A stretch of DNA of 29,898 nucleotides, from positions 1 through 29,898 of the IMG/VR virus record IMGVR_UViG_3300018067_000023. One strand, written 5' to 3'. The notes under the pieces are model-generated. The model was not told where the DNA came from and did not search any database. It saw only the letters and a list, made by a program, of their open reading frames with translations. Position 1 is the first letter of the stretch, and every line of letters begins with the position of its first letter. The DNA is from a virus. Of this stretch, positions 9,325 through 29,865 are shown piece by piece. Both the position numbers and the translations under genes were made by a program.

Positions 9325-9350
9325 TTCGCGGGCTATACAGGGCCTATAAT
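9325..9350 (+). promoter_or_regulatory. Phage promoter P1 (TTCGCG-14-TATAAT)
   Basis: TTCGCG at 9325-9330 and TATAAT at 9345-9350 are separated by exactly 14 bases and followed by GAGACCC. It sits between the holin and a 94-residue membrane protein whose ATG is at 9374, preceded by GAGAGGAA. It matches six other strong sites in the window in both elements and spacing, including the GAGA just after the -10. No recognisable TTGACA lies 17 bases upstream of the -10. Confidence 0.82.
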
Positions 9351-9373
9351 GAGACCCTATTGAGAGGAACAAC

Positions 9374-9733: not shown

Positions 9734-9778
9734 ATCTCAAAAATTCCCCGGGGGTAGATCCTGAAAAACTATTTTTTA

Positions 9779-9804
9779 CTCGCGAAAATTACATAGCCTA
9801 TAAT
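9779..9804 (+). promoter_or_regulatory. Phage promoter P2 (CTCGCG-14-TATAAT)
   Basis: CTCGCG at 9779-9784, 14 bases, TATAAT at 9799-9804, then GAGAAGAG. The spacer contains ACATAGCC, shared almost exactly with P3 and P4. No open reading frame with a ribosome binding site follows before the terminator at 9894-9933, so the product should be a short RNA. Confidence 0.82.
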
Positions 9805-9810
9805 GAGAAG

Positions 9811-9933
9811 AGCTCCGAAAGGAGATTGAGACACTAATGTCCAGGTTCGAGTCCTGGCCAATGTGCTGTCACGGAATGAACAGACAGTTAACGAGTGAAT
9901 TTTAGTTGGATTCACTACCTCTTCTCTTTTTTT
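9811..9933 (+). ncRNA. Structured small RNA unit A with a tRNA T-arm mimic
   Basis: About 120 bases between promoter P2 and a U-tract, without a plausible ORF. Four hairpins can be read directly. CTCC(9813-9816)-GAAA-GGAG is a GNRA-capped stem. CCAGG(9841-9845)-TTCGAGT-CCTGG(9853-9857) has the exact stem length and loop consensus of a tRNA T-arm. CTGTC(9866-9870) pairs with GACAG(9883-9887). AGTGAAT(9894-9900) pairs with ATTCACT(9910-9916) as terminator. In addition GAGAAGAG right after the -10 (9805-9812) is fully complementary to CTCTTCTC (9919-9926) beside the U-run. The 5' end is set by the usual distance from the -10 and could be a few bases earlier. Not a tRNA: there is no anticodon arm or matching acceptor strand. 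Confidence 0.7.
9894..9933 (+). terminator. Terminator of small RNA A
   Basis: Seven-pair stem AGTGAAT / ATTCACT (9894-9900 with 9910-9916), then ACCTCTTCTC and seven T at 9927-9933. The ten bases between hairpin and T-run are longer than usual. Pairing of CTCTTCTC with the promoter-proximal GAGAAGAG would place a stem right next to the T-run. Confidence 0.7.
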
Positions 9934-9938
9934 GTTTT

Positions 9939-9964
9939 TTCGCAAAAACTACATAGCATATAAT
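9939..9964 (+). promoter_or_regulatory. Phage promoter P3 (TTCGCA-14-TATAAT)
   Basis: TTCGCA at 9939-9944, 14 bases including ACATAGCA, TATAAT at 9959-9964, then GAGAAGAG. It starts only five bases after the T-run of small RNA A, so the units are directly abutting. Confidence 0.82.
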
Positions 9965-9970
9965 GAGAAG

Positions 9971-10100
9971 AGAAATCGCCATACCAAATAAGGACGATTG
10001 AAAAGCCGGTAACCCCGTAATAGATTTATGATAGCCAGTATTCGAAAGAATACGTAGCAGAACACAAATGGATTCGGCTAAAACTCTTCTTCTATTTTTT
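9971..10100 (+). ncRNA. Structured small RNA unit B
   Basis: About 130 non-coding bases from promoter P3 to a T-run at 10095-10100. Visible pairings: AATCG(9974-9978)/CGATT(9995-9999); AGCCG(10004-10008)/CGGCT(10075-10079), which encloses the perfect GNRA-type hairpin GTATTC-GAAA-GAATAC at 10038-10053; and a closing helix of AGAAGAG near the promoter (9966-9972) with CTCTTCT (10084-10090). The layout resembles a multi-branched RNA closed by its ends. There is no ORF with a ribosome binding site. The function is unknown; candidates are an antisense or decoy RNA acting on host or phage transcripts. Confidence 0.68.
10084..10100 (+). terminator. Terminator tail of small RNA B
   Basis: CTCTTCTTCTA then TTTTTT. 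There is no local hairpin immediately before the T-run. The likely stems are AGCCG/CGGCT, ending at 10079, or the closing helix with the promoter-proximal AGAAGAG. Termination here therefore depends on the long-range fold and is less certain than at the neighbouring sites. Confidence 0.5.
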
Positions 10101-10124
10101 CGCGAGAAATACATGGCCTATAAT
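10099..10124 (+). promoter_or_regulatory. Phage promoter P4 (TTCGCG-14-TATAAT)
   Basis: TTCGCG at 10099-10104, which uses the end of the previous T-run, 14 bases including ACATGGCC, TATAAT at 10119-10124, then GAGAAGAA. Confidence 0.82.
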
Positions 10125-10130
10125 GAGAAG

Positions 10131-10177
10131 AATGCTCCTAGAGCGACCATCAATCCAGATGGTTCTTCTTTTTTTTT
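10131..10177 (+). ncRNA. Short structured RNA unit C
   Basis: Only about 50 bases separate promoter P4 from a long T-run. ACCATC(10146-10151)/GATGGT(10158-10163) is a perfect terminator hairpin followed by TCTTCTTTTTTTTT. The sequence after the -10, AGAAGAA, is complementary to TTCTTCT at 10163-10169; relative to units A and B both partners changed together (G to A and C to T), which argues that the pairing matters. No ORF fits. It may be a stable short RNA, or a promoter that is attenuated and allows some read-through into the membrane-protein genes from 10205. Confidence 0.62.
10146..10177 (+). terminator. Intrinsic terminator of RNA C
   Basis: Six-pair GC-balanced stem ACCATC / GATGGT with a six-base loop, followed by TCTTCT and nine T ending at 10177. 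Confidence 0.82.
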
Positions 10178-10204: not shown

Positions 10205-10318
10205 ATGAATTCTAAAGAGTATGGATTTTTAAATTTTCTAGGTGATGTGTTTATGATCTGCCTTACCTGTGGTTTTTGGTTGGTCTGGATATTCGTCAGG
10301 GAGATGCGGCGCCGATGA
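10205..10318 (+). CDS. Very small membrane protein (37 residues)
   Basis: An ATG at 10205 follows the strong ribosome binding site GAGGAGA at 10192-10199. The frame gives 37 residues: a short polar N-terminus (MNSKEYGFLNFLGD), one hydrophobic segment (FMICLTCGFWLVWIFV) and the very basic end REMRRR. The positive-inside rule would put the C-terminus in the cytoplasm. The TGA overlaps the next ATG as ATGA, so it is coupled to the DUF6353-like gene, itself a membrane protein. The excellent start signal and coupling argue that it is real despite its size. Function unknown. Confidence 0.72.
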   Translation: MNSKEYGFLNFLGDVFMICLTCGFWLVWIFVREMRRR

Positions 10319-11091
10319 TTTCAACTGATTTTTCCTCCAGGATTCAAAAATTTATCTCAGACAACGCACCTACAATTCTGACTACTGTGGGTGTTACAGG
10401 AACTTTGGTAACGGCATATCTTGCTGGGAAAGCGTCATTCCGTGCAGCTGAGCTCATTGCTAGAGAAGAGGAGATTCTCCAACGTTCCCCATTTGATCGA
10501 CCCGTTTTTAAGCTACAGGATAAGATTAAGCTTGTTTGGACTCTTTATATTCCGGCGGCCACAACGAGTGTTACGACGATTGTCAGTATCATTGCTGCTA
10601 ACCGGGTTAGTGATAAACGCGCGGCTGCGATGGCTGCGGCATTCACTATATCCGATCGCGCTTTTACTGAATACAAAGAAAAAGTGTTTGATAGACTTGG
10701 TAAGGGTAAGGAACAGAACATTCGAGACGAGATTGCACAAGATCGTGTCAATAAAGATCCTCCGCACGAGAGCTCAGTCATCATTACAGGGTCAGGGGAG
10801 GTTCTTTGCTACGAGTTATTTACAGGAAGATACTTCAAAAGTACCATGGAAAACATAAAGAAAGCGCAAAACGATATAAATCATCGGATTCTGACTGGTT
10901 CTTCAGCCTCTTTAAGTGAATTCTACAATTTGATGGATCTTCCAACAACAGCACAGTCTGATGAAGTGGGATGGAACTTAGACAGATTGCTCGAATTGAG
11001 ATTCTCATCGGTTCTTACTGATGATGGCAGACCCTGTCTCTCAATCGACTACAGCGTTGTCCCAATCAGAAGTTATTGGAAGATTGGGTAG
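10315..11091 (+). CDS. DUF6353-like membrane protein, paralogue 1
   Basis: A 258-residue protein; ATG at 10315 overlaps the upstream stop. It has a membrane segment near residues 15-37 (TILTTVGVTGTLVTAYLAG) and a second near 75-97, separated by a charged stretch. It then shows KRAAAMAAAFTISDRAFTEY, followed by a soluble C-terminal domain with LSEFYNLMDLP and DEVGWNLDRL. The same plan is present in the gene at 13789 (KR, Ala-rich helix, DR-x-F-x-E-Y, FLNDVYDMLG, GWIRDG), so the two are paralogues. I associate this plan with the phage-restricted family DUF6353; its function is not known. Two membrane helices with a large cytoplasmic domain suggest a membrane-anchored early function rather than a virion part, but that is inference. 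Confidence 0.7.
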   Translation: MISTDFSSRIQKFISDNAPTILTTVGVTGTLVTAYLAGKASFRAAELIAREEEILQRSPFDRPVFKLQDKIKLVWTLYIPAATTSVTTIVSIIAANRVSDKRAAAMAAAFTISDRAFTEYKEKVFDRLGKGKEQNIRDEIAQDRVNKDPPHESSVIITGSGEVLCYELFTGRYFKSTMENIKKAQNDINHRILTGSSASLSEFYNLMDLPTTAQSDEVGWNLDRLLELRFSSVLTDDGRPCLSIDYSVVPIRSYWKIG

Positions 11092-11386: not shown

Positions 11387-11653
11387 ATGAGTAAGCTTGT
11401 TGATCGTGTTAGGACGTATAAAGTTGCCAATGATGTCACTGATCATGTCGAACAGCATAAGACGCTATATTCTAGCCTTGCAACAGGCGTTGGGTTTGCA
11501 ATAATTACATATGTTATAATGAGAGCCAGACCACAACTTGGCAATTTTGTCATCGGCGACACTACCAACGGTGCTATTGTATGCATTATTGGAGAAAAGG
11601 CCGTGTTGTCAAATGTGTCTTTCGTTTCTCCGCAAGGAGTCCCGTCGGCGTAG
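11387..11653 (+). CDS. Small membrane-anchored protein, unknown
   Basis: An 88-residue protein starting at 11387 with no good ribosome binding site, suggesting coupling to the gene that ends five bases earlier. The N-terminal 25 residues are polar and helical, then comes one membrane segment (SLATGVGFAIITYVIM), then a short beta-type domain with GNFVIGDTTNGAIVCIIG. Function unknown. It is directly followed by promoter P5, whose TTCGCG begins two bases after the stop codon. Confidence 0.55.
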   Translation: MSKLVDRVRTYKVANDVTDHVEQHKTLYSSLATGVGFAIITYVIMRARPQLGNFVIGDTTNGAIVCIIGEKAVLSNVSFVSPQGVPSA

Positions 11654-11654
11654 C

Positions 11655-11680
11655 TTCGCGAAATATACAACCCTTATGAT
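11655..11680 (+). promoter_or_regulatory. Phage promoter P5 (TTCGCG-14-TATGAT)
   Basis: TTCGCG at 11655-11660, 14 bases, TATGAT at 11675-11680, then GAGACCCCTATTGAGAGGAA, which supplies the ribosome binding site of the next gene. The -10 variant TATGAT and the flank ACAACCCT are shared with P6. Confidence 0.8.
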
Positions 11681-11705
11681 GAGACCCCTATTGAGAGGAA
11701 AAACC

Positions 11706-12634: not shown

Positions 12635-12660
12635 ATCGCGAGTTTTACAACCCTTATGAT
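12635..12660 (+). promoter_or_regulatory. Phage promoter P6 (ATCGCG-14-TATGAT)
   Basis: ATCGCG at 12635-12640, 14 bases ending in ACAACCCT, TATGAT at 12655-12660, then GAGACCCCTA. The 20 bases from ACAACCC through GAGACC are identical to P5. Confidence 0.8.
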
Positions 12661-12686
12661 GAGACCCCTACCCGAAAGGAAATGTC

Positions 12687-13788: not shown

Positions 13789-14676
13789 ATGAAATGCGTG
13801 CCAGATGGAGCAATGAGAATCATCAGTCGTTCGGTTCTGCAAGGACAGAAGCATTCTCCTAGGATCCTGTTCGTAACGGGAATTGTCGGTGTAGTTGCGA
13901 CTACAGTCGTTGCTTGTCGTGCAACTCTGAAGCTGGAGGAAGTTCTTGTCTCGGCTCAGACGGATCTCGATAATGTAAGAGAGTTGCAACACAAGAAGTA
14001 TTCGGAACAGGATCGAGAGCAGGACACGGCTTACGTTTATATTCGTAGTGCAGTTAAGGTTGTCAAGCTTTATCTGCCTGCTGTTTGTCTCGGTGCATTC
14101 TCCATCGGTTGTCTTGTAGGTGCTAACAATATCCTTACAAAGCGAAATGTTGCTTTGACTGCTGCATATGCTGCCATTGATCGAAGTTTCAGCGAATATA
14201 GAGATAGGGTCGTTACAGAGCTAGGCGAAGACAAAGATCGGGAATTTCGATATGGAGTTCGCGAAGAAGAGAAGACTATTGTCGATGACAACGGAAAGAA
14301 GTCTAAGGACGTCGTCAAGAGGGTAGGCTTCGGCCCAACGTCGGGTTATGCGAGATTCTTTGATGAATATTCTCGACACTGGGATCGGCACCCAGATTAC
14401 AACTCTATGTTCATCCAATGCCAGCAGAATTATGCGAATGATCTTCTACGTTCGAGAGGACACGTGTTTTTAAATGATGTCTATGACATGCTCGGTTTTG
14501 AAAGGACGACGCCGGGTTCTGTTGTTGGCTGGATTCGTGATGGTGACGGCGATGGTTATATTGATTTCGGAGTCTATAATCACGGAAATCCCAGGGCCAG
14601 AGATTTCGTAAATGCTCGAGAGGGGTCTGTTCTTCTCGATTTTAATGTTGACGGCGTCATCTACGATAAAATCTAG
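13789..14676 (+). CDS. DUF6353-like membrane protein, paralogue 2
   Basis: A 295-residue protein starting at ATG 13789, nine bases after AAGGAAAGG. Membrane segments lie near residues 25-43 (ILFVTGIVGVVATTVVAC) and 90-112 (VVKLYLPAVCLGAFSIGC), followed by TKRNVALTAAYAAIDRSFSEY and a soluble C-terminal domain containing FLNDVYDMLGFE, GWIRDGDGDG and FVNAREGSVLLDFNVDG. The central segment repeats the KR, Ala-rich helix, D-R-x-F-x-E-Y plan of the gene at 10315. Compared with that copy it carries a longer charged insert and an Asp/Gly-rich loop. The family's function is unknown; membrane anchoring with a cytoplasmic domain is the visible feature. It is the first gene of the string leading into the DNA polymerase. 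Confidence 0.7.
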   Translation: MKCVPDGAMRIISRSVLQGQKHSPRILFVTGIVGVVATTVVACRATLKLEEVLVSAQTDLDNVRELQHKKYSEQDREQDTAYVYIRSAVKVVKLYLPAVCLGAFSIGCLVGANNILTKRNVALTAAYAAIDRSFSEYRDRVVTELGEDKDREFRYGVREEEKTIVDDNGKKSKDVVKRVGFGPTSGYARFFDEYSRHWDRHPDYNSMFIQCQQNYANDLLRSRGHVFLNDVYDMLGFERTTPGSVVGWIRDGDGDGYIDFGVYNHGNPRARDFVNAREGSVLLDFNVDGVIYDKI

Positions 14677-22036: not shown

Positions 22037-22062
22037 TTCGCACAATTTACATAGTATATAAT
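22037..22062 (+). promoter_or_regulatory. Phage promoter P7 (TTCGCA-14-TATAAT)
   Basis: TTCGCA at 22037-22042, 14 bases including ACATAGTA, TATAAT at 22057-22062, then GAGACCCC. It drives the 70-residue membrane protein at 22098. Confidence 0.82.
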
Positions 22063-22097
22063 GAGACCCCAAACCCAAATCTGAAAGGAATACCACC

Positions 22098-22372: not shown

Positions 22373-22738
22373 ATGGCCGGAATTGATGTCCAACCACCAG
22401 TACTAGATCTTAGTTTCTATGCTGGAGACGGTTTCGAGTTCACGTTGAATTGCACTGATATCAATGGTGATCCCATAGATATCGTAGGAACATTCAATGC
22501 ACAGATAAAGCTGAATCGTACCGTTGATGAGATAGTCACCAGTTTTGCCATCAACGACGATGGGGCTTCACAGGGTGCTCTTATTTTGTTTTTGACCGGA
22601 GAACAAACACAAGAACTGATACCTTTGGGTAAGAGTAAGTTCTCTGGTGTCTGGGATTTGCAGTGGATGCCTGATGACTCATATCCTCGCACTATCGTGC
22701 AAGGAAGTGTGGGGTGTACGGTAGATGTCACTCGATGA
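22373..22738 (+). CDS. Beta-sandwich protein upstream of the collagen-like fibre
   Basis: A 121-residue beta-rich protein after GAAAGGGAA. It starts with a short proline stretch, then [23 protein letters not shown], followed by strands ending in [12 protein letters not shown] and [13 protein letters not shown]. The A-G-D-x-x-x-F-x-x-x-x-x-D-x-x-G-x-P-x-D pattern is what I associate with N-terminal adaptor domains of receptor-binding or baseplate proteins (BppU- or LtfC-like). Role: probably anchors or caps the collagen-like fibre encoded next, whose start overlaps this stop by 14 bases. No catalytic motif. The assignment is by fold style and context. Confidence 0.62.
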
Positions 22739-24422
22739 GATAGCAAACATATCAGTCAAAATTGAAGAACCAGTCAAGGTTAAAATCAAACCTCCCCCCA
22801 CAGTCGACATGGATATAGAGTCTGCTCCAAAAGTTATTTTGTTGGCTAACGGTGCAATTGGCAATCCAGGACCTCCAGGACCTCCAGGACTCACAGGCCC
22901 GCCTGGACCAACAGGACCGCAGGGAGCAGATTCAACTGTTCCAGGACCGATAGGACCTCCTGGACCAGAGGGTTTGCAGGGTGTACAAGGTCCAAAAGGA
23001 AACACAGGAAAAGATGGTGATCCTGGGCCTCAGGGCCCAGTAGGACTTATGGGACCCGTAGGACCCAAGGGTGCAACAGGCGATACAGGTGCCACAGGAG
23101 CTACAGGTGCAACAGGAGCTACAGGACCTAAAGGAGAAGATTCAACTGTTCCGGGTCCACAGGGACCAGTAGGACTCACAGGACCGCAAGGTCCGGCTGG
23201 GCAGTCTGCCAATCTGTTCTCCTACCGCGCGAATACCTCGACCACCATCGGCGACCCCGGCTCGGGCTACCTGCTCTGGAACGATATCGTCTCCCAGATG
23301 TCGGCCACCTCGATCTCGCTGAACGACCTTGACATGAACGGGCTCGGGGTGTCTGGCGGGGTGGCCACGATCCGAGTCGGCGACCAGATCACCCTGCAGA
23401 GGTTCTCCGACCCGACCCAGTTCCAGATCTGGACCATCAACTCCCCCGCGGTTGACCACGGAACCTACTGGACACTGCCATCGGTCTCTCTTGCCGGCGG
23501 CGGCTCCCAGATGGTCACCAACGCGCCGATGACGGTTTGGCTGACCCGGCCCGGTGCAACAGGCGCAACGGGTGCTACCGGTTCCCAGGGACCAATAGGA
23601 CTCACAGGACCGCAAGGTGAAACAGGAGCTCAAGGTGCAACGGGTGCTACCGGTTCCCAGGGCCCGAGCGGTACACCAGGAGAAAAGTGGTTCAGCGGCT
23701 TGGGAGCCCCAGCGGGCCCAGCCGGACTAATCGGCGACTGGTACATCAACCTGTCCAATGGCGACATGTACGAAAAGACCGGTTTATCAGCGTGGACTTT
23801 CCGCTTTAATACCATGGGACCGACTGGCGCAACAGGAGCTCAAGGGTCACAGGGTGCAACAGGTGCACAGGGACCAGTAGGACCACAGGGTGTAACAGGG
23901 CCCAACCTTATGCTGACTGCATCAGGGAAATGGGGTACAATCTCGGGTCCTAGAAATACGCTTCTTATAACTAATGCACGAGCATACTGGTGCCCGATAA
24001 CAATTACTCAAACCACCACCATACTTGCACTCGGAGTTGATATTACAATAGTCGGCTCGGCTGGCTCGATTATTCGACTCGGTATTGCTGCGGACAATGG
24101 TGCATTTATGCCATCAACACTTTTGCTGGACGCGGGGACCGTTCCTGGGACCAGTGCTGTGACGGCCCAAGTCAGTACGGTCGGATTTCCTCCACTCGCG
24201 CCTGGAGTTTACTGGTTAGGTTGTGCCGGACAAGGATCACCTGTAACACAACCCACTCTTCGTGCTTACAACAATGCCGCTACAGCTCTACCAACGGCCG
24301 CTATTTCAGCCAACCCGAATGGAGCTTTCTACCAGAGCACTGTTGCTGGTGCATTCGCGAGTCCCATTAATGCAGTAGACGGGGCTGTAAATAACTGGCC
24401 TCTTATTGGAGTCATGACTTAA
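22725..24422 (+). CDS. Collagen-like tail fibre protein
   Basis: A 565-residue fibre. Residues 1-45 form a beta-type attachment segment ([20 protein letters not shown]). Gly-X-Y collagen repeats fill about residues 46-158 (GPPGPPG, then many GPQGP and GATGATG units), 276-318, and 364-391, giving a trimeric rod. Between the first two, about residues 160-275, is a globular domain ([12 protein letters not shown] onward) with much higher GC and different codon choice. A short globular insert ([20 protein letters not shown]) interrupts the second rod. The last 170 residues form a beta-rich tip ([16 protein letters not shown] onward), likely the receptor-contact or trimerisation domain. Phage fibres with collagen rods carry adhesion tips. 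Start at ATG 22725 overlaps the preceding gene. Confidence 0.87.
23171..23618 (+). repeat. 22-base direct repeats bracketing the fibre insert
   Basis: Positions 23171-23192 and 23597-23618 are identical (starting AGGACTCACAGGACC). They are 426 bases apart, exactly 142 codons, and lie in collagen-coding sequence on either side of the GC-rich domain. Exchange between them would remove or swap the domain without a frameshift. Confidence 0.85.
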
Positions 24423-26280: not shown

Positions 26281-26306
26281 GCTGTAAGAAATACATGGCA
26301 TATAAT
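26281..26306 (+). promoter_or_regulatory. Weaker phage promoter P8 (GCTGTA-14-TATAAT)
   Basis: TATAAT at 26301-26306 is preceded by ACATGGCA exactly as in P4, but the upstream hexamer is GCTGTA instead of TTCGCG. Spacing is again 14. The downstream GAGA is replaced by AGAA. A terminator-like element follows within 50 bases, then the VRR-NUC gene. Confidence 0.62.
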
Positions 26307-26311
26307 AGAAT

Positions 26312-26364: not shown

Positions 26365-26679
26365 ATGAGAGAAGGCAACTATCAAACACAATTGATTAAG
26401 AAGTTGGAATACTTGTTTCCTGGTAGTCTTATTTTGAAGAATGATCCAAACTACATTCAAGGACTACCAGACCTTATTGTTTTGTATGATGATCAATGGG
26501 CAGCCTTGGAAGTGAAATCTAACCCGACACAGGTTCGACCCAATCAAAGATATTTTGTTGAAAGAATGGATGATATGTCTTTCGCGAGATTTATTTCTCC
26601 TGAGACTGAAGAGGAAGTTTTGAATGATCTTCAACAAGCATTCAATTCTCACAGGTCAACACGCGTTTCTAGGCGCTAG
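26365..26679 (+). CDS. VRR-NUC-type nuclease
   Basis: A 104-residue nuclease. ATG 26365 lies four bases after GGAGG; an in-frame ATG at 26344 precedes this site and is less likely. It has the compact VRR-NUC plan: an N-terminal helix with E3 and Q9, K25-N-D, G33-L-P-D36-L as the metal-binding motif, and L-E49-V-K51 as the PD-(D/E)XK catalytic pair, followed by R-P-N-Q near residue 57. Stand-alone phage VRR-NUC proteins process branched DNA and resemble Holliday-junction resolvases. The downstream exonuclease gene overlaps it by 56 bases, so both are made from one message. Confidence 0.88.
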   Translation: MREGNYQTQLIKKLEYLFPGSLILKNDPNYIQGLPDLIVLYDDQWAALEVKSNPTQVRPNQRYFVERMDDMSFARFISPETEEEVLNDLQQAFNSHRSTRVSRR

Positions 26680-27181
26680 TAAGTATCATTGGATTAACTA
26701 CGATCTCGAAAAGATGGAACGTGCTTATTATTCAATGCTTGCGACACAAAGAGGAACAGACCTTCACGATTTAGCTCATCAGCTTATTAAGCTTGGAGTT
26801 AAATTACCTCGCACCCGCAAGACTTTGAATATGTATGTGAATGATGCTCTTGGTTTTCGTTTGTCCCCGGAACAGATGTTATATTATTCTGAAAACTGTT
26901 TCGGTACGTCAGATGCTATAGGGTTTCGTGATAACAAACTTCGAGTTCATGATCTCAAAACAGGTAGAATGCCTGCATCTGAACATCAATTGGAAATCTA
27001 TGCCGCCTTGTTCTGTCTCGAATATCGAATGAAACCTTTTGATATTCAAATTGAACTTCGCATTTACCAACATGATGATATCCGTATCTATGAACCCGAT
27101 CCAGACATAATACTTCATATCATGGATAAAATTGTCATGTTTGACAAGCATATCAGTATACTCAGAGCGGAGGTACTATAA
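26624..27181 (+). CDS. Cas4/RecB-type PD-(D/E)XK exonuclease
   Basis: A 185-residue nuclease starting inside the VRR-NUC gene at ATG 26624, seven bases after GAGGAAG. The N-terminus (NKHSILTGQHAFLGASKYHW) precedes RGTDLHDLAHQ with H48, then GTSD97, VHD110-L-K112 and Q122-L-E-I-Y126. This H, D, D-x-K, Q-x-x-x-Y set is the RecB/Cas4-type active site. The four cysteines of Cas4 iron-sulfur proteins are absent (only two Cys), so it is a cluster-free form. It likely digests DNA ends in replication-linked recombination together with the helicase and VRR-NUC. The stop overlaps the next start by one base. Confidence 0.87.
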   Translation: MIFNKHSILTGQHAFLGASKYHWINYDLEKMERAYYSMLATQRGTDLHDLAHQLIKLGVKLPRTRKTLNMYVNDALGFRLSPEQMLYYSENCFGTSDAIGFRDNKLRVHDLKTGRMPASEHQLEIYAALFCLEYRMKPFDIQIELRIYQHDDIRIYEPDPDIILHIMDKIVMFDKHISILRAEVL

Positions 27182-29865
27182 TGCTGATTCAAGATCCTAA
27201 CTATTATTTGAAGCACTACGGTACTAAGCGTCACTCTGGTAGATATGCTTGGGGATCTGGTGGAGAGAACGAATCTGAAGGCGGAGACTCAAGTGCTTAT
27301 TCATGGTTGTTGGAACAGATCGATAAGTTTAAAAAGCAAGGCATGACTGAGACTGAGATTGCTGCTGGGTTGGGTATGTCTACTACTCAACTTCGCGCAC
27401 AGAAAACAATAGCAAAGAATGAACAGAAGCAAGCGACCATTGCTCAAGCTGAGAAACTTCGAGCAAAGGGATATTCTGCTTCAGCTATCGGTCGTAGCAT
27501 GAACTTGAATGAATCTTCCGTTCGTAGTCTTCTGGCACCAGGTCAAAAAGATAGACTCGATATTCTTCACACCACAGCAAACTTGATACAGGAACACGTC
27601 GATAAAGGAAAATATGTCGATGTTGGTTTTGGTGTTGAGAATATGCCTCAACTTGGAATATCCGATACAAAACTGAAGGCTGCTGTTTCTCTCCTTCAGG
27701 ATAAAGGCTATCAAGTTCATAAAGTTCAAATAGATCAACTTGGCACCGCCCCTGGAAAGAAAACAATCATTAAGGTTGTCACTCCTCCAGGAACGACATA
27801 CAAAGATGTTAAGACCAACATGAATAAGATTAGTCAGCTTAATGAATATTCTGATGATGGAGGACGTACTTATAGAGAGCATCAACCACCGCTATCAATT
27901 GATTCTAAGCGAATTGCAGTCAAATACGCTGAAGATGGTGGCTCTGATGCTGATGGTATGATTTATGTTCGTCCTGGCGTACAAGATATTTCATTAGGTA
28001 AATCTCGATACGCTCAAGTTCGCGTTTCTGTAGATGATACTCATTATCTAAAAGGTATGGCATTATATAAAGAAGACTTGCCTCCTGGGGTAGATCTTGA
28101 ATTTCATACCAATAAAAGTAATACTGGTAATAAGAAAGACGTAATGAAGCCGGTAACTGGTAATCCGGATGATCCTTTTGGAGCTTTGACCAAACCTCCT
28201 AGGACTGATCCTAAGACCGGCAAAGTTGTTTCGGCGATGAATATGGTTCATGAAGAAGGAGATTGGGATACTTGGTCTAGAAAGATGTCACCACAGGTTC
28301 TTTCAAAGCAGAGTGTATCCCTAGCTAAGAGTCAGCTTGATATGAATTATGAGAAAGAGAAAGCCGAATTTGATACGATTAATTCCCTTACGAATCCTGC
28401 TGTTCGTAAGCTTCTGTTGAACAAGTATGCAGAGAAAGCTGATGCCGCAGCGGTACATATGAAGGTTGCTGCTCTTCCAAGATCATCATACCACGCTATT
28501 CTTCCATTTAACAGTATGAAAGAGACTGAAATTTATGCTCCTAACTATAACAATGGAGAAAAAGTAGCTCTTATTCGTTACCCACACGGCGGAACGTTTG
28601 AGATTCCAGAACTGACAGTTAATAATAAAACACCAACAGTAAAATCAGTTATTGGTAATGCACCTGATGCTGTAGGAATCCACCCTAATGTAGCAAAACG
28701 CTTATCTGGTGCAGACTTCGATGGCGATTTTGTAATGGTGATTCCTAATAATAAAGGTCTTATTAAATCTACTCCTGCTTTAACTGCACTAAAAGATTTT
28801 GATCCTAAGTCTGCATATCCAAAGTATGAAGGAATGAAAGTAATTTCTCCTAGCGAGAAACAGAATCAGATGGGTAAAATTACCAACCTGATTGCAGATA
28901 TGACAATCAAAGGAGCAAAGCCCGATGAGCTAGCTCGAGCTGTTAAACATTCAATGGTTGTTATTGATTCGGAAAGGCACGAGCTAAACTATAAGGCTTC
29001 TGCTATAGACCATGGTATAGCCGCTCTTAAAACTAGGTATCAAGGCGGCCCTAATAAAGGATCAGCAACTCTTATTACCAGGGCTGGATCCAATGTATAC
29101 ACACCTCAACGCAAACCAAGGCGTATGAGTGAAGGCGGTCCTGTTGATCCTCGTACTGGAGAATTAATTTATACACCAACTGGGGCTACCCGAACAGATT
29201 CAAAAGGGCGTACCACTTTAATTAAGGAACCAGTAGCGAGACTAAAGTTAGAAAAGGATGCAAGGAATCTCTCATCCGGTACACGGATGGAGAGTACCTA
29301 TGCTGATTACTCCAACAAGATGAAGGCTTTGTCTAATCAGGCAAGGAAAGAAGCTTATAGCATTAAGGCCCCTACTCGTTCGGCTTCTGCAGCAGCTGTA
29401 TACAAGCATGAAGTGGCCTCTCTTAATAGTAAGCTGACCCTTGCAAATACCAACCCTCCTAGGGAAAGACAAGCCCAGCTGTTTGCCAATGCAGCAGTAG
29501 CGGCCAAGCGTGCAGCCAATCCTGGTATGAATTCGCAGACTCTTAAGAAGATTGAAGGTCAAGAGCTCGTTCGTGCCAGGCGTAGGACAGGTGCTAGCAA
29601 GACAGACATTCACATAACAGATAGAGAATGGGATGCTATTCAGTCTTTTGCTATTAGTGATAGTAGATTGAAGGCTATTCTAAACAACGCTAATCTAGAA
29701 AGAGTGCGTGACTTAGCTACACCTAAGAGTGATTTCAAGTACAAGATGACTTCCGCTAAGATTAATAGAGCTCGTGCAATGTCAGCCGCAGGCTATACTC
29801 AAGCTGAGATAGCTAGTGCTTTAGGTGTTTCATTGACCACACTCAAGGAGGGGTTGAAAGGATAA
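27181..29865 (+). CDS. YonO-like single-chain RNA polymerase candidate with HTH domains
   Basis: An 894-residue protein, about the length of Bacillus SPbeta YonO. Residues 500-516 read I-H-P-N-V, a short gap, then A-D512-F-D514-G-D516, followed by V-M-V-I-P. This copies the order of the bacterial beta-prime active site (LHPLV, then NADFDGD, then VHVP). K461-x-x-x-x-R466-Y-P-H lies about 45 residues earlier, where beta-prime has RAPTLH. These are the signs of the two-barrel polymerase superfamily, in which the three Asp bind magnesium. Helix-turn-helix-like segments occur at residues 48-76, 88-118 and the last 35 residues (AAGYTQAEIASALGVS). Residues 8-27 hold a phage linear motif, HYGTKRHSGRY. 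The start ATG overlaps the exonuclease stop. Expected role: phage-specific transcription or a primer/replication transcript; untested. Confidence 0.72.
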   Translation: MLIQDPNYYLKHYGTKRHSGRYAWGSGGENESEGGDSSAYSWLLEQIDKFKKQGMTETEIAAGLGMSTTQLRAQKTIAKNEQKQATIAQAEKLRAKGYSASAIGRSMNLNESSVRSLLAPGQKDRLDILHTTANLIQEHVDKGKYVDVGFGVENMPQLGISDTKLKAAVSLLQDKGYQVHKVQIDQLGTAPGKKTIIKVVTPPGTTYKDVKTNMNKISQLNEYSDDGGRTYREHQPPLSIDSKRIAVKYAEDGGSDADGMIYVRPGVQDISLGKSRYAQVRVSVDDTHYLKGMALYKEDLPPGVDLEFHTNKSNTGNKKDVMKPVTGNPDDPFGALTKPPRTDPKTGKVVSAMNMVHEEGDWDTWSRKMSPQVLSKQSVSLAKSQLDMNYEKEKAEFDTINSLTNPAVRKLLLNKYAEKADAAAVHMKVAALPRSSYHAILPFNSMKETEIYAPNYNNGEKVALIRYPHGGTFEIPELTVNNKTPTVKSVIGNAPDAVGIHPNVAKRLSGADFDGDFVMVIPNNKGLIKSTPALTALKDFDPKSAYPKYEGMKVISPSEKQNQMGKITNLIADMTIKGAKPDELARAVKHSMVVIDSERHELNYKASAIDHGIAALKTRYQGGPNKGSATLITRAGSNVYTPQRKPRRMSEGGPVDPRTGELIYTPTGATRTDSKGRTTLIKEPVARLKLEKDARNLSSGTRMESTYADYSNKMKALSNQARKEAYSIKAPTRSASAAAVYKHEVASLNSKLTLANTNPPRERQAQLFANAAVAAKRAANPGMNSQTLKKIEGQELVRARRRTGASKTDIHITDREWDAIQSFAISDSRLKAILNNANLERVRDLATPKSDFKYKMTSAKINRARAMSAAGYTQAEIASALGVSLTTLKEGLKG

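Follow-up and report, generated by a model that had tools for sequence, protein, structure and literature searches.

The RNA polymerase gene and its predicted fold

The stretch of DNA analysed in this study (hereafter the window) comprises 29,898 nucleotides, positions 1 to 29,898 of the IMG/VR virus record IMGVR_UViG_3300018067_000023, and represents a piece of a tailed phage with tape measure, Dit and minor tail genes, a holin and a block of small genes. The analysis concerns two of its features: a gene for a well-supported single-chain RNA polymerase (RNAP), and a 30-bp promoter-like element that occurs nine times in the window. The open reading frame (ORF) of the RNAP gene (27181-29865, plus strand) starts with ATG, encodes 894 amino acids, belongs to PHROG 4291 and is the last complete gene of this 29.9-kb record. 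It follows two operon genes on the same strand, a VRR-Nuc endonuclease gene (26365-26679; phrog_93, E 2e-15), whose ATG at 26365 is accompanied by GGAGG, and a Cas4-like exonuclease gene (26624-27181; phrog_3953, E 1e-78), whose stop codon shares one base with the RNAP start codon. The order of the operon genes is kept in relatives.

An earlier note on this DNA had proposed that the gene encodes a single-chain RNAP outside the T7 type, and the predicted fold agrees with it. An AlphaFold2 model built on 75 homologues reached a predicted local distance difference test (pLDDT) score of 83 and a predicted template modelling score of 0.72, with pLDDT below 50 only at residues 1-37 and in two short loops. 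Comparison with solved structures using Foldseek revealed QDE-1, RDR2 and the non-virion RNAPs of phages P23-45 and P74-26 as the best matches (E 1e-9 to 1e-4), with largest subunits from Pol II, Pol IV and the bacterial enzyme coming next. In VIA-align, residues 681-1188 of QDE-1 were superposed on residues 236-729 of the model (Z 17.2, 376 residues, root-mean-square deviation 4.6); the Z scores for RDR2, P74-26 gp62, P23-45 gp64 and Pol II were 16.4, 13.9, 12.8 and 10.9, and the aligned ranges of the model cover both barrel regions. The earlier note had named a structure without double-psi beta barrels as evidence against its proposal; instead, two-barrel RNAPs were matched over 376 residues. 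Sequence searches of the PDB, with the single sequence and with a profile, retrieved helix-turn-helix (HTH) proteins and helical repeats and no RNAP, and the homology is therefore visible by fold and motif only. The Pfam RdRP family PF05183 matched residues 503-601 (20.2 bits, E 2.7e-4) below its curated cut-off of 23.8, and the T7-type RNAP domain PF00940 gave no match at E values up to 1. In our view, structure prediction establishes the modelled fold class as that of the two-barrel (cellular-type) RNAPs, and the invariant motifs described below go with it.

The first barrel region (double-psi beta barrel DPBB-B, beta-like) is placed at residues 237-334 (27889-28182, plus strand), with inferred limits; the alignments to QDE-1, RDR2 and gp64 begin at residues 236-239. 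The second barrel region (DPBB-A, beta-prime-like) spans residues 440-525 (28498-28755, plus strand), and the largest subunits of Pol II and Pol III align with the model at about residues 426-627. It contains R-Y-P-H at 466-469 and the putative metal-binding loop ADFDGD at 511-516 (28711-28728, plus strand), the latter within I-H-P-N-V-A-K-R-L-S-G-A-D-F-D-G-D-F-V-M-V-I-P (residues 500-522). The beta-prime motif is ADFDGDQMAVHVP, and the spacing after DFDGD in the RNAP is about one residue shorter. Of the catalytic loop described in the earlier note, H-P...ADFDGD is present at 501-516 and R-x-P-H lies upstream as claimed, while the V-x-x-P spacing was misread, the actual arrangement being V518-x-x-x-P522 or V520-x-P522.

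Analysis of an alignment of 11 sequences (A1) found R466, P468, H469 and D512-F-D-G-D516 to be invariant. Eight of these sequences were taken from annotated phages by tblastn with no motif required, and the motif can therefore not be ascribed to chance. The same residues are 99-100% conserved in an alignment of 75 sequences (A3), a figure that is biased because the loci were fetched by DFDGD/HSMVVID patterns; in A3, K291 and K323 of the first barrel region are invariant and K312 is 99% conserved. The two barrels would build one active site, in which the DFDGD loop would hold the catalytic metals and the three lysines K291, K312 and K323 would grip the nucleoside triphosphate. Helices resembling the bridge helix are tentatively assigned by conservation to residues 557-600 (MGKITNLIAD...HSMVVIDSERH; 28849-28980, plus strand), and in a weak hhalign match this segment is in register with GxISNNITK of YonO, the single-chain RNAP of phage SPbeta. 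The window protein has R599 (codon at 28975-28977), adjoining the conserved IDxEKH segment, where 99% of homologues have lysine.

HTH-like segments were expected at both ends of the protein and were found at both. The N-terminal helical segment (residues 39-119; 27295-27537, plus strand) is helical in the model and has HTH profile matches at residues 44-119 and 73-116. The C-terminal HTH (residues 855-889; 29743-29847, plus strand) matches Pfam HTH_23 at residues 867-888 with E 4.6e-6, over the Pfam cut-off. A separate 95-amino-acid HTH protein (A0A5B8WIH5) of Arthrobacter phage Qui, itself a carrier of the RNAP, matches an HTH part of the model (Foldseek TMt 0.78, 26% identity).

PHROG 4291, labelled 'RNA-dependent RNA polymerase', matches residues 8-893 of the protein (E = 0, 1196 bits). 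Using tblastn, the RNAP was identified in 250 phage records, in 249 of them with at least 80% query cover and in all with identity below 60%; the organisms named are phages of Arthrobacter, Gordonia, Streptomyces, Lactococcus, Curtobacterium, Rhodococcus, Microbacterium and Faecalibacterium, together with human-associated phages. More than 500 relatives were found in IMG/VR and 138 in a genome collection, and many of the latter, lying in long Firmicutes chromosome contigs, are probably prophages. Family members such as Arthrobacter phage Circum gp98, Streptomyces phage RosaAsantewaa gp54 and Lactococcus phage 1706 gp75 are full-length homologues, about 40-55% identical, that share the operon with the window, mostly lie close to the right end of the genome and show no difference of note. 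The RNAP is thus not new to the databases. Its commonest record name is 'helix-turn-helix DNA-binding domain protein', which bears out, for most deposited records, the earlier suggestion that such proteins are annotated only by their HTH; the suggestion fails for PHROGs and some RefSeq records, which say RNA-dependent RNA polymerase, and for Faecalibacterium phage oengus, whose record says 'putative RNA polymerase'. As far as the literature was searched, no paper on a promoter or an activity of this family was found.

The database label, the eukaryotic RDRs as nearest solved folds and the position of the gene in a nuclease/recombination operon could be read as signs of an RNA-dependent RNA polymerase, or of a primer-making polymerase of replication, in place of a transcriptase. 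We consider this very improbable, since the carriers are tailed phages with double-stranded DNA, YonO and P23-45 gp64 have similar cores and are DNA-dependent (PMC5467207, PMC10770324), QDE-1 structures with DNA templates exist according to their titles, and the protein carries DNA-binding HTHs at both ends and is linked to promoter-like sites. The names 'HTH DNA-binding protein' and 'RNA-dependent RNA polymerase' would accordingly be better replaced by 'probable DNA-dependent RNA polymerase'.

Some homologues carry a further label. The original GenBank entry of Lactococcus phage 1706 calls the homologue orf75 a 'structural protein', a name that few 1706 genes received, and the label is repeated for the homologue gp106 of ReqiPoco6. 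The 1706 label suggests that virions contain copies of the RNAP and bring them in with the DNA. A packaged RNAP would start early transcription without host RNAP, and entry with the virion, if the label is right, suits promoters on early genes. A conserved N-terminal tag, H-x-G-x-x-R-x-S-G-R-Y-(P)-(W)-G-S-G (residues 10-27; 27208-27261, plus strand), is predicted to be disordered (pLDDT about 35), and its mean conservation is 0.85, compared with 0.64 for the whole protein. Because it is well conserved yet predicted disordered, the tag might be suggested as a candidate signal for virion packaging or docking. Among the other proteins of the RNAP loci the tag was found in one short open frame only, and its matches in the phage collection were members of the RNAP family. 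The 'structural protein' labels and the HTH annotation would also fit a protein that retains a polymerase fold, has lost catalysis and serves as a structural component of the virion or in DNA binding. To this we give hardly any credence, as the three catalytic aspartates (D512, D514, D516), RxPH and the barrel lysines are kept across homologues only 40-60% identical overall.

The promoter-like element

Repeat analysis of the non-coding gaps of the window revealed a 30-bp motif with nine sites, all on the plus strand, that read TCGC-N6-TACA-N5-TATAATGAGA or near it; the conserved blocks are TCGC, TACA and TATAATGA. With a matrix made from these sites, the nine score 25-44, and the next best scores in the window are 8.2 on the plus strand and 2.9 on the minus strand. 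One site (26282-26311, score 25.5) precedes the VRR-Nuc/exonuclease/RNAP operon, about 0.9 kb ahead of the RNAP gene. Seven lie in the early region, at 9326-9355 (score 37.7; 18 bp before ATG 9374), 9780-9809 (43.5), 9940-9969 (41.1), 10100-10129 (43.8), 11496-11525 (32.6), 11656-11685 (38.7; 20 bp before ATG 11706) and 12636-12665 (36.5; 21 bp before ATG 12687), and the ninth is at 22038-22067 (37.9; 30 bp before ATG 22098). The site at 11496 falls within a short ORF without known family. The three sites at 9780, 9940 and 10100 stand in tandem units (9764-10131) with a spacing of exactly 160 bp and little coding sequence between them.

Independent repeat searches recovered the element in four annotated relatives, namely RosaAsantewaa (Streptomyces, 59% G+C), D_HF4_2 (oral), 1706 (Lactococcus, 34% G+C) and Circum (Arthrobacter), and its general form across relatives is CGC-N7-ACA-N4-CTnTnATgA. 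Scanning the relatives with the window matrix (threshold 12) gave a total of 219 plus-strand and 4 minus-strand sites (Streptomyces, Arthrobacter, Lactococcus and clostridia): 108 and 2 in the viral RNAP loci, 111 and 2 in the genome (prophage) loci, with at least one site in 71 of 80 genome loci. Some of the loci overlap, so that these counts hold duplicates; with identical contexts removed, 102-103 viral and 114-116 genome sites remain at threshold 11. The reversed-sequence control gave 7 matches in 5.1 Mb. Across IMG/VR, the exact pattern was present in at least 120 stretches and the backwards pattern in one. A convincing RNAP was identified in 29 of the 34 motif-bearing contigs of at least 34 kb, a thirtieth match of 14 bits being discounted. 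Of the other five contigs, three stop 1.4-6 kb past the DNA polymerase gene and two lack that gene as well as the RNAP gene, which makes all five look like fragments.

In three annotated relatives, all 24 sites are intergenic or overlap just 8-12 bp of the end of the preceding gene, by which a coding repeat was ruled out. These sites mostly lie 18-30 bp ahead of annotated start codons; they group right behind the tail/lysis genes, and none was found in the structural block. The window shows this pattern too. The relatives' equivalent of the operon site keeps a nearly constant position, about 0.9 kb ahead of the RNAP gene and 2.44-2.53 kb upstream of the DFDGD codon. In a held-out test of this site, a matrix made from the eight early sites only was applied upstream of the RNAP at 182 non-redundant loci (score >8). 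A site was found on the forward strand at 110 loci and on the reverse strand at none, with a median distance of 2477 bp to the DFDGD codon; the loci are related, and the counts are thus not independent events. In relatives the operon site is often directly followed by a hairpin and a T run (e.g. L002:1282-1376, L003:4100-4194 and L023:522-616), a layout reminiscent of attenuation; of the first 60 operon leaders, 48 have T5 within 95 nt. The leader in the window folds weakly (hairpin z -1.3).

The reader of the element

The geometry of the element is promoter-like, being directional and followed by a short leader with a ribosome-binding site. A -35 match occurs at chance level, TATAAT is often missing in Firmicutes, and in the genome loci CGC and ACA are about 90-98% conserved. 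Twelve lysogen genomes (about 43 Mb) were scanned for the Firmicute form of the element. It was found 24 times, 23 of them on the contig and strand of the RNAP, most within 25 kb of it and one about 50 kb off, and the reversed control was found 0 times; outside the prophage these genomes are almost free of the element. A search for sigma70 region 2 in the 29 contigs that carry both motif and RNAP detected its controls and gave no match, and a phage sigma factor was rejected as the reader on this ground. A scan of the window for host sigma70 promoters gave 35 hits compared with 34.5 in shuffles, i.e. no excess.

The promoter geometry, the form unlike that of ordinary sigma-A promoters, the near confinement to prophages, the RNAP as the only enzyme of transcription detected in this lineage and its HTH ends together lead us to read the element as the promoter of the RNAP; the step from linkage to promoter recognition is one that we infer. 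Overall, we consider it likely that the ORF encodes a single-polypeptide, DNA-dependent two-barrel RNAP that probably initiates at its own TCGC-N6-TACA-N5-TATAATGAGA promoters, ahead of early genes and of its own operon. The enzyme would start at the phage promoters without host sigma, with the HTH ends as the likeliest DNA readers, and its targets would be the block of small early genes that follows the tail/lysis genes and the VRR-Nuc/exonuclease/RNAP operon.

Several observations weigh against this reading and its extension to virion delivery. The RNAP, the full-length DNA polymerase and the exonuclease share one phage lineage (250, 252 and 250 records; for the exonuclease, count and organism breakdown equal those of the RNAP); as these proteins travel together, co-occurrence cannot single out the RNAP, and another shared protein could be the reader. 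About 40% of the loci are without a strong operon site by the early-site matrix. The actinobacterial form of the motif contains TATAAT, the host -10 hexamer, so that host RNAP aided by an activator may be the reader. For packaging, the evidence consists of database labels.

The third of these points leads to a different assignment, in which the RNAP is real and, like YonO, serves other, perhaps late, genes, and the motif is read by host RNAP, with sigma-A on TATAAT and a phage activator on TCGC-N6-TACA. Among the viral sites TATAAT is indeed the commonest hexamer (44 of 102), motif and phage lineage occur together as one block, and YonO is reported to transcribe late genes (PMC5467207). The promoter-like sites of the window phage, by contrast, stand ahead of early-type genes and none ahead of structural genes. 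In the genome loci, however, TTTTAT (43 of 114) outnumbers TATAAT (23 of 114) while CGC and ACA stay conserved, and the motif is kept across phages of Streptomyces, Arthrobacter, the oral cavity, Lactococcus and clostridia. Together with the -35 at chance level and the 23 of 24 lysogen matches on the contig and strand of the RNAP, this disfavours an ordinary host promoter and makes reading by host RNAP unlikely in our estimate, although it is the strongest competitor of recognition by the phage RNAP.

A fuller proposal builds on recognition by the phage RNAP: a virion-delivered, sigma-free, HTH-equipped single-chain two-barrel RNAP in a widespread lineage of phages of Actinobacteria and Firmicutes would read CGC-N7-ACA-N4-CTnTnATgA for early genes and its own operon and so free early transcription from host RNAP. 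This is put forward tentatively, with somewhat less than even confidence. The new part is the conserved promoter-like cis-element, the RNAP family itself being already catalogued by automatic annotation. To our knowledge, the characterised single-chain relatives of cellular RNAP are few (YonO, the P23-45 RNAPs, crAss gp66 and the eukaryotic RDRs), and little is understood of the way in which they locate promoters. The family combines a compact enzyme with a candidate promoter, in about 250 phage records and with many of the hosts cultured. Since the candidate promoter is sharply defined in a lineage with cultured hosts, it offers a direct way to test how a single-chain two-barrel RNAP recognises promoters.

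Comparison with YonO and other polymerases, and further observations

The earlier note had called the protein YonO-like, which holds for the two-barrel class and does not hold for the family. PHROG 4291 matches the window protein over its full length, whereas PHROG 8308 (SPbeta yonO and relatives, taken as the yardstick) matches residues 445-573 only (E 9.9e-5). Comparison of the two proteins revealed similarity in the single chain, the near-equal length (as the note had claimed), the DxDGD loop, RxPH, a bridge-like GxxSN segment and the local profile match. In a profile-profile alignment using hhalign, RxPH, DFDGD and the following GxxSN are in register with YonO, at a P value of 0.014 and a probability of 3%; a single-sequence hhalign comparison was discarded as spurious. 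A YonO model (pLDDT 89) matched RDR2 and QDE-1 with Z 23-28.5 over about 560-614 residues (609 at Z 28.5) and thus covers them nearly end to end, whereas the window protein matches through the core only. YonO gave no HTH match, in contrast to the HTHs at both ends of the window protein, and its C-terminal CxxC/CxxC (C799, C802, C816, C819) is invariant in the YonO alignment (A4), whereas A3 has no invariant cysteine. The window RNAP and YonO are relatives within the two-barrel class and belong to separate families. The promoter sequence of YonO was still not established in the paper that describes it (PMC5467207). Several SPbeta-type yonO genes (L376-L380, L387-L393 and L423) seem to be interrupted near residue 625, inside a conserved segment, as judged from a match that ends at 625 or a gene span 0.3-1.2 kb over that expected; Rfam found no intron in the interrupted genes at the gathering threshold.

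P23-45 gp64 and P74-26 gp62 (8f72, 8f5m) are likewise phage-encoded single-chain two-barrel RNAPs, of the non-virion kind, whose core aligns with that of the window protein over about 355 residues (Z 13-14); they differ in their length of about 593 amino acids, and no sequence match to the window protein was found. QDE-1 and plant RDR2, the best structural matches to the catalytic core, are eukaryotic RNA-silencing polymerases with different outer domains. The single-chain two-barrel RNAP gp66 of the crAss-like phage phi14:2 (6vr4) is carried in the virion, so that its likeness in delivery depends on the 1706 label being right, and its deposited chain has 2166 amino acids compared with 894 in the window RNAP. 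Both crAss gp66 (6vr4) and P23-45 gp96 lay outside the 50 matches listed for the window model and inside those of YonO, which leaves room for similarity.

Further genes of the window encode a 1263-amino-acid DNA polymerase/primase (PHROG 4210), a single-strand annealing protein and an endolysin, followed by a collagen-like tail fibre, a helicase and an HNH protein ahead of the VRR-Nuc, exonuclease and RNAP genes; an Rfam scan of the window found no match. The tail fibre gene (22725-24422) has collagen-like Gly-X-Y repeats with many in-frame 9-nt units. A pair of PHROG 2152 paralogues, to which no function is assigned, lies on either side of the early block (10276-11091 and 13789-14676). A protein identical to the window RNAP is encoded on a 4078-bp contig (L001) of another metagenome.

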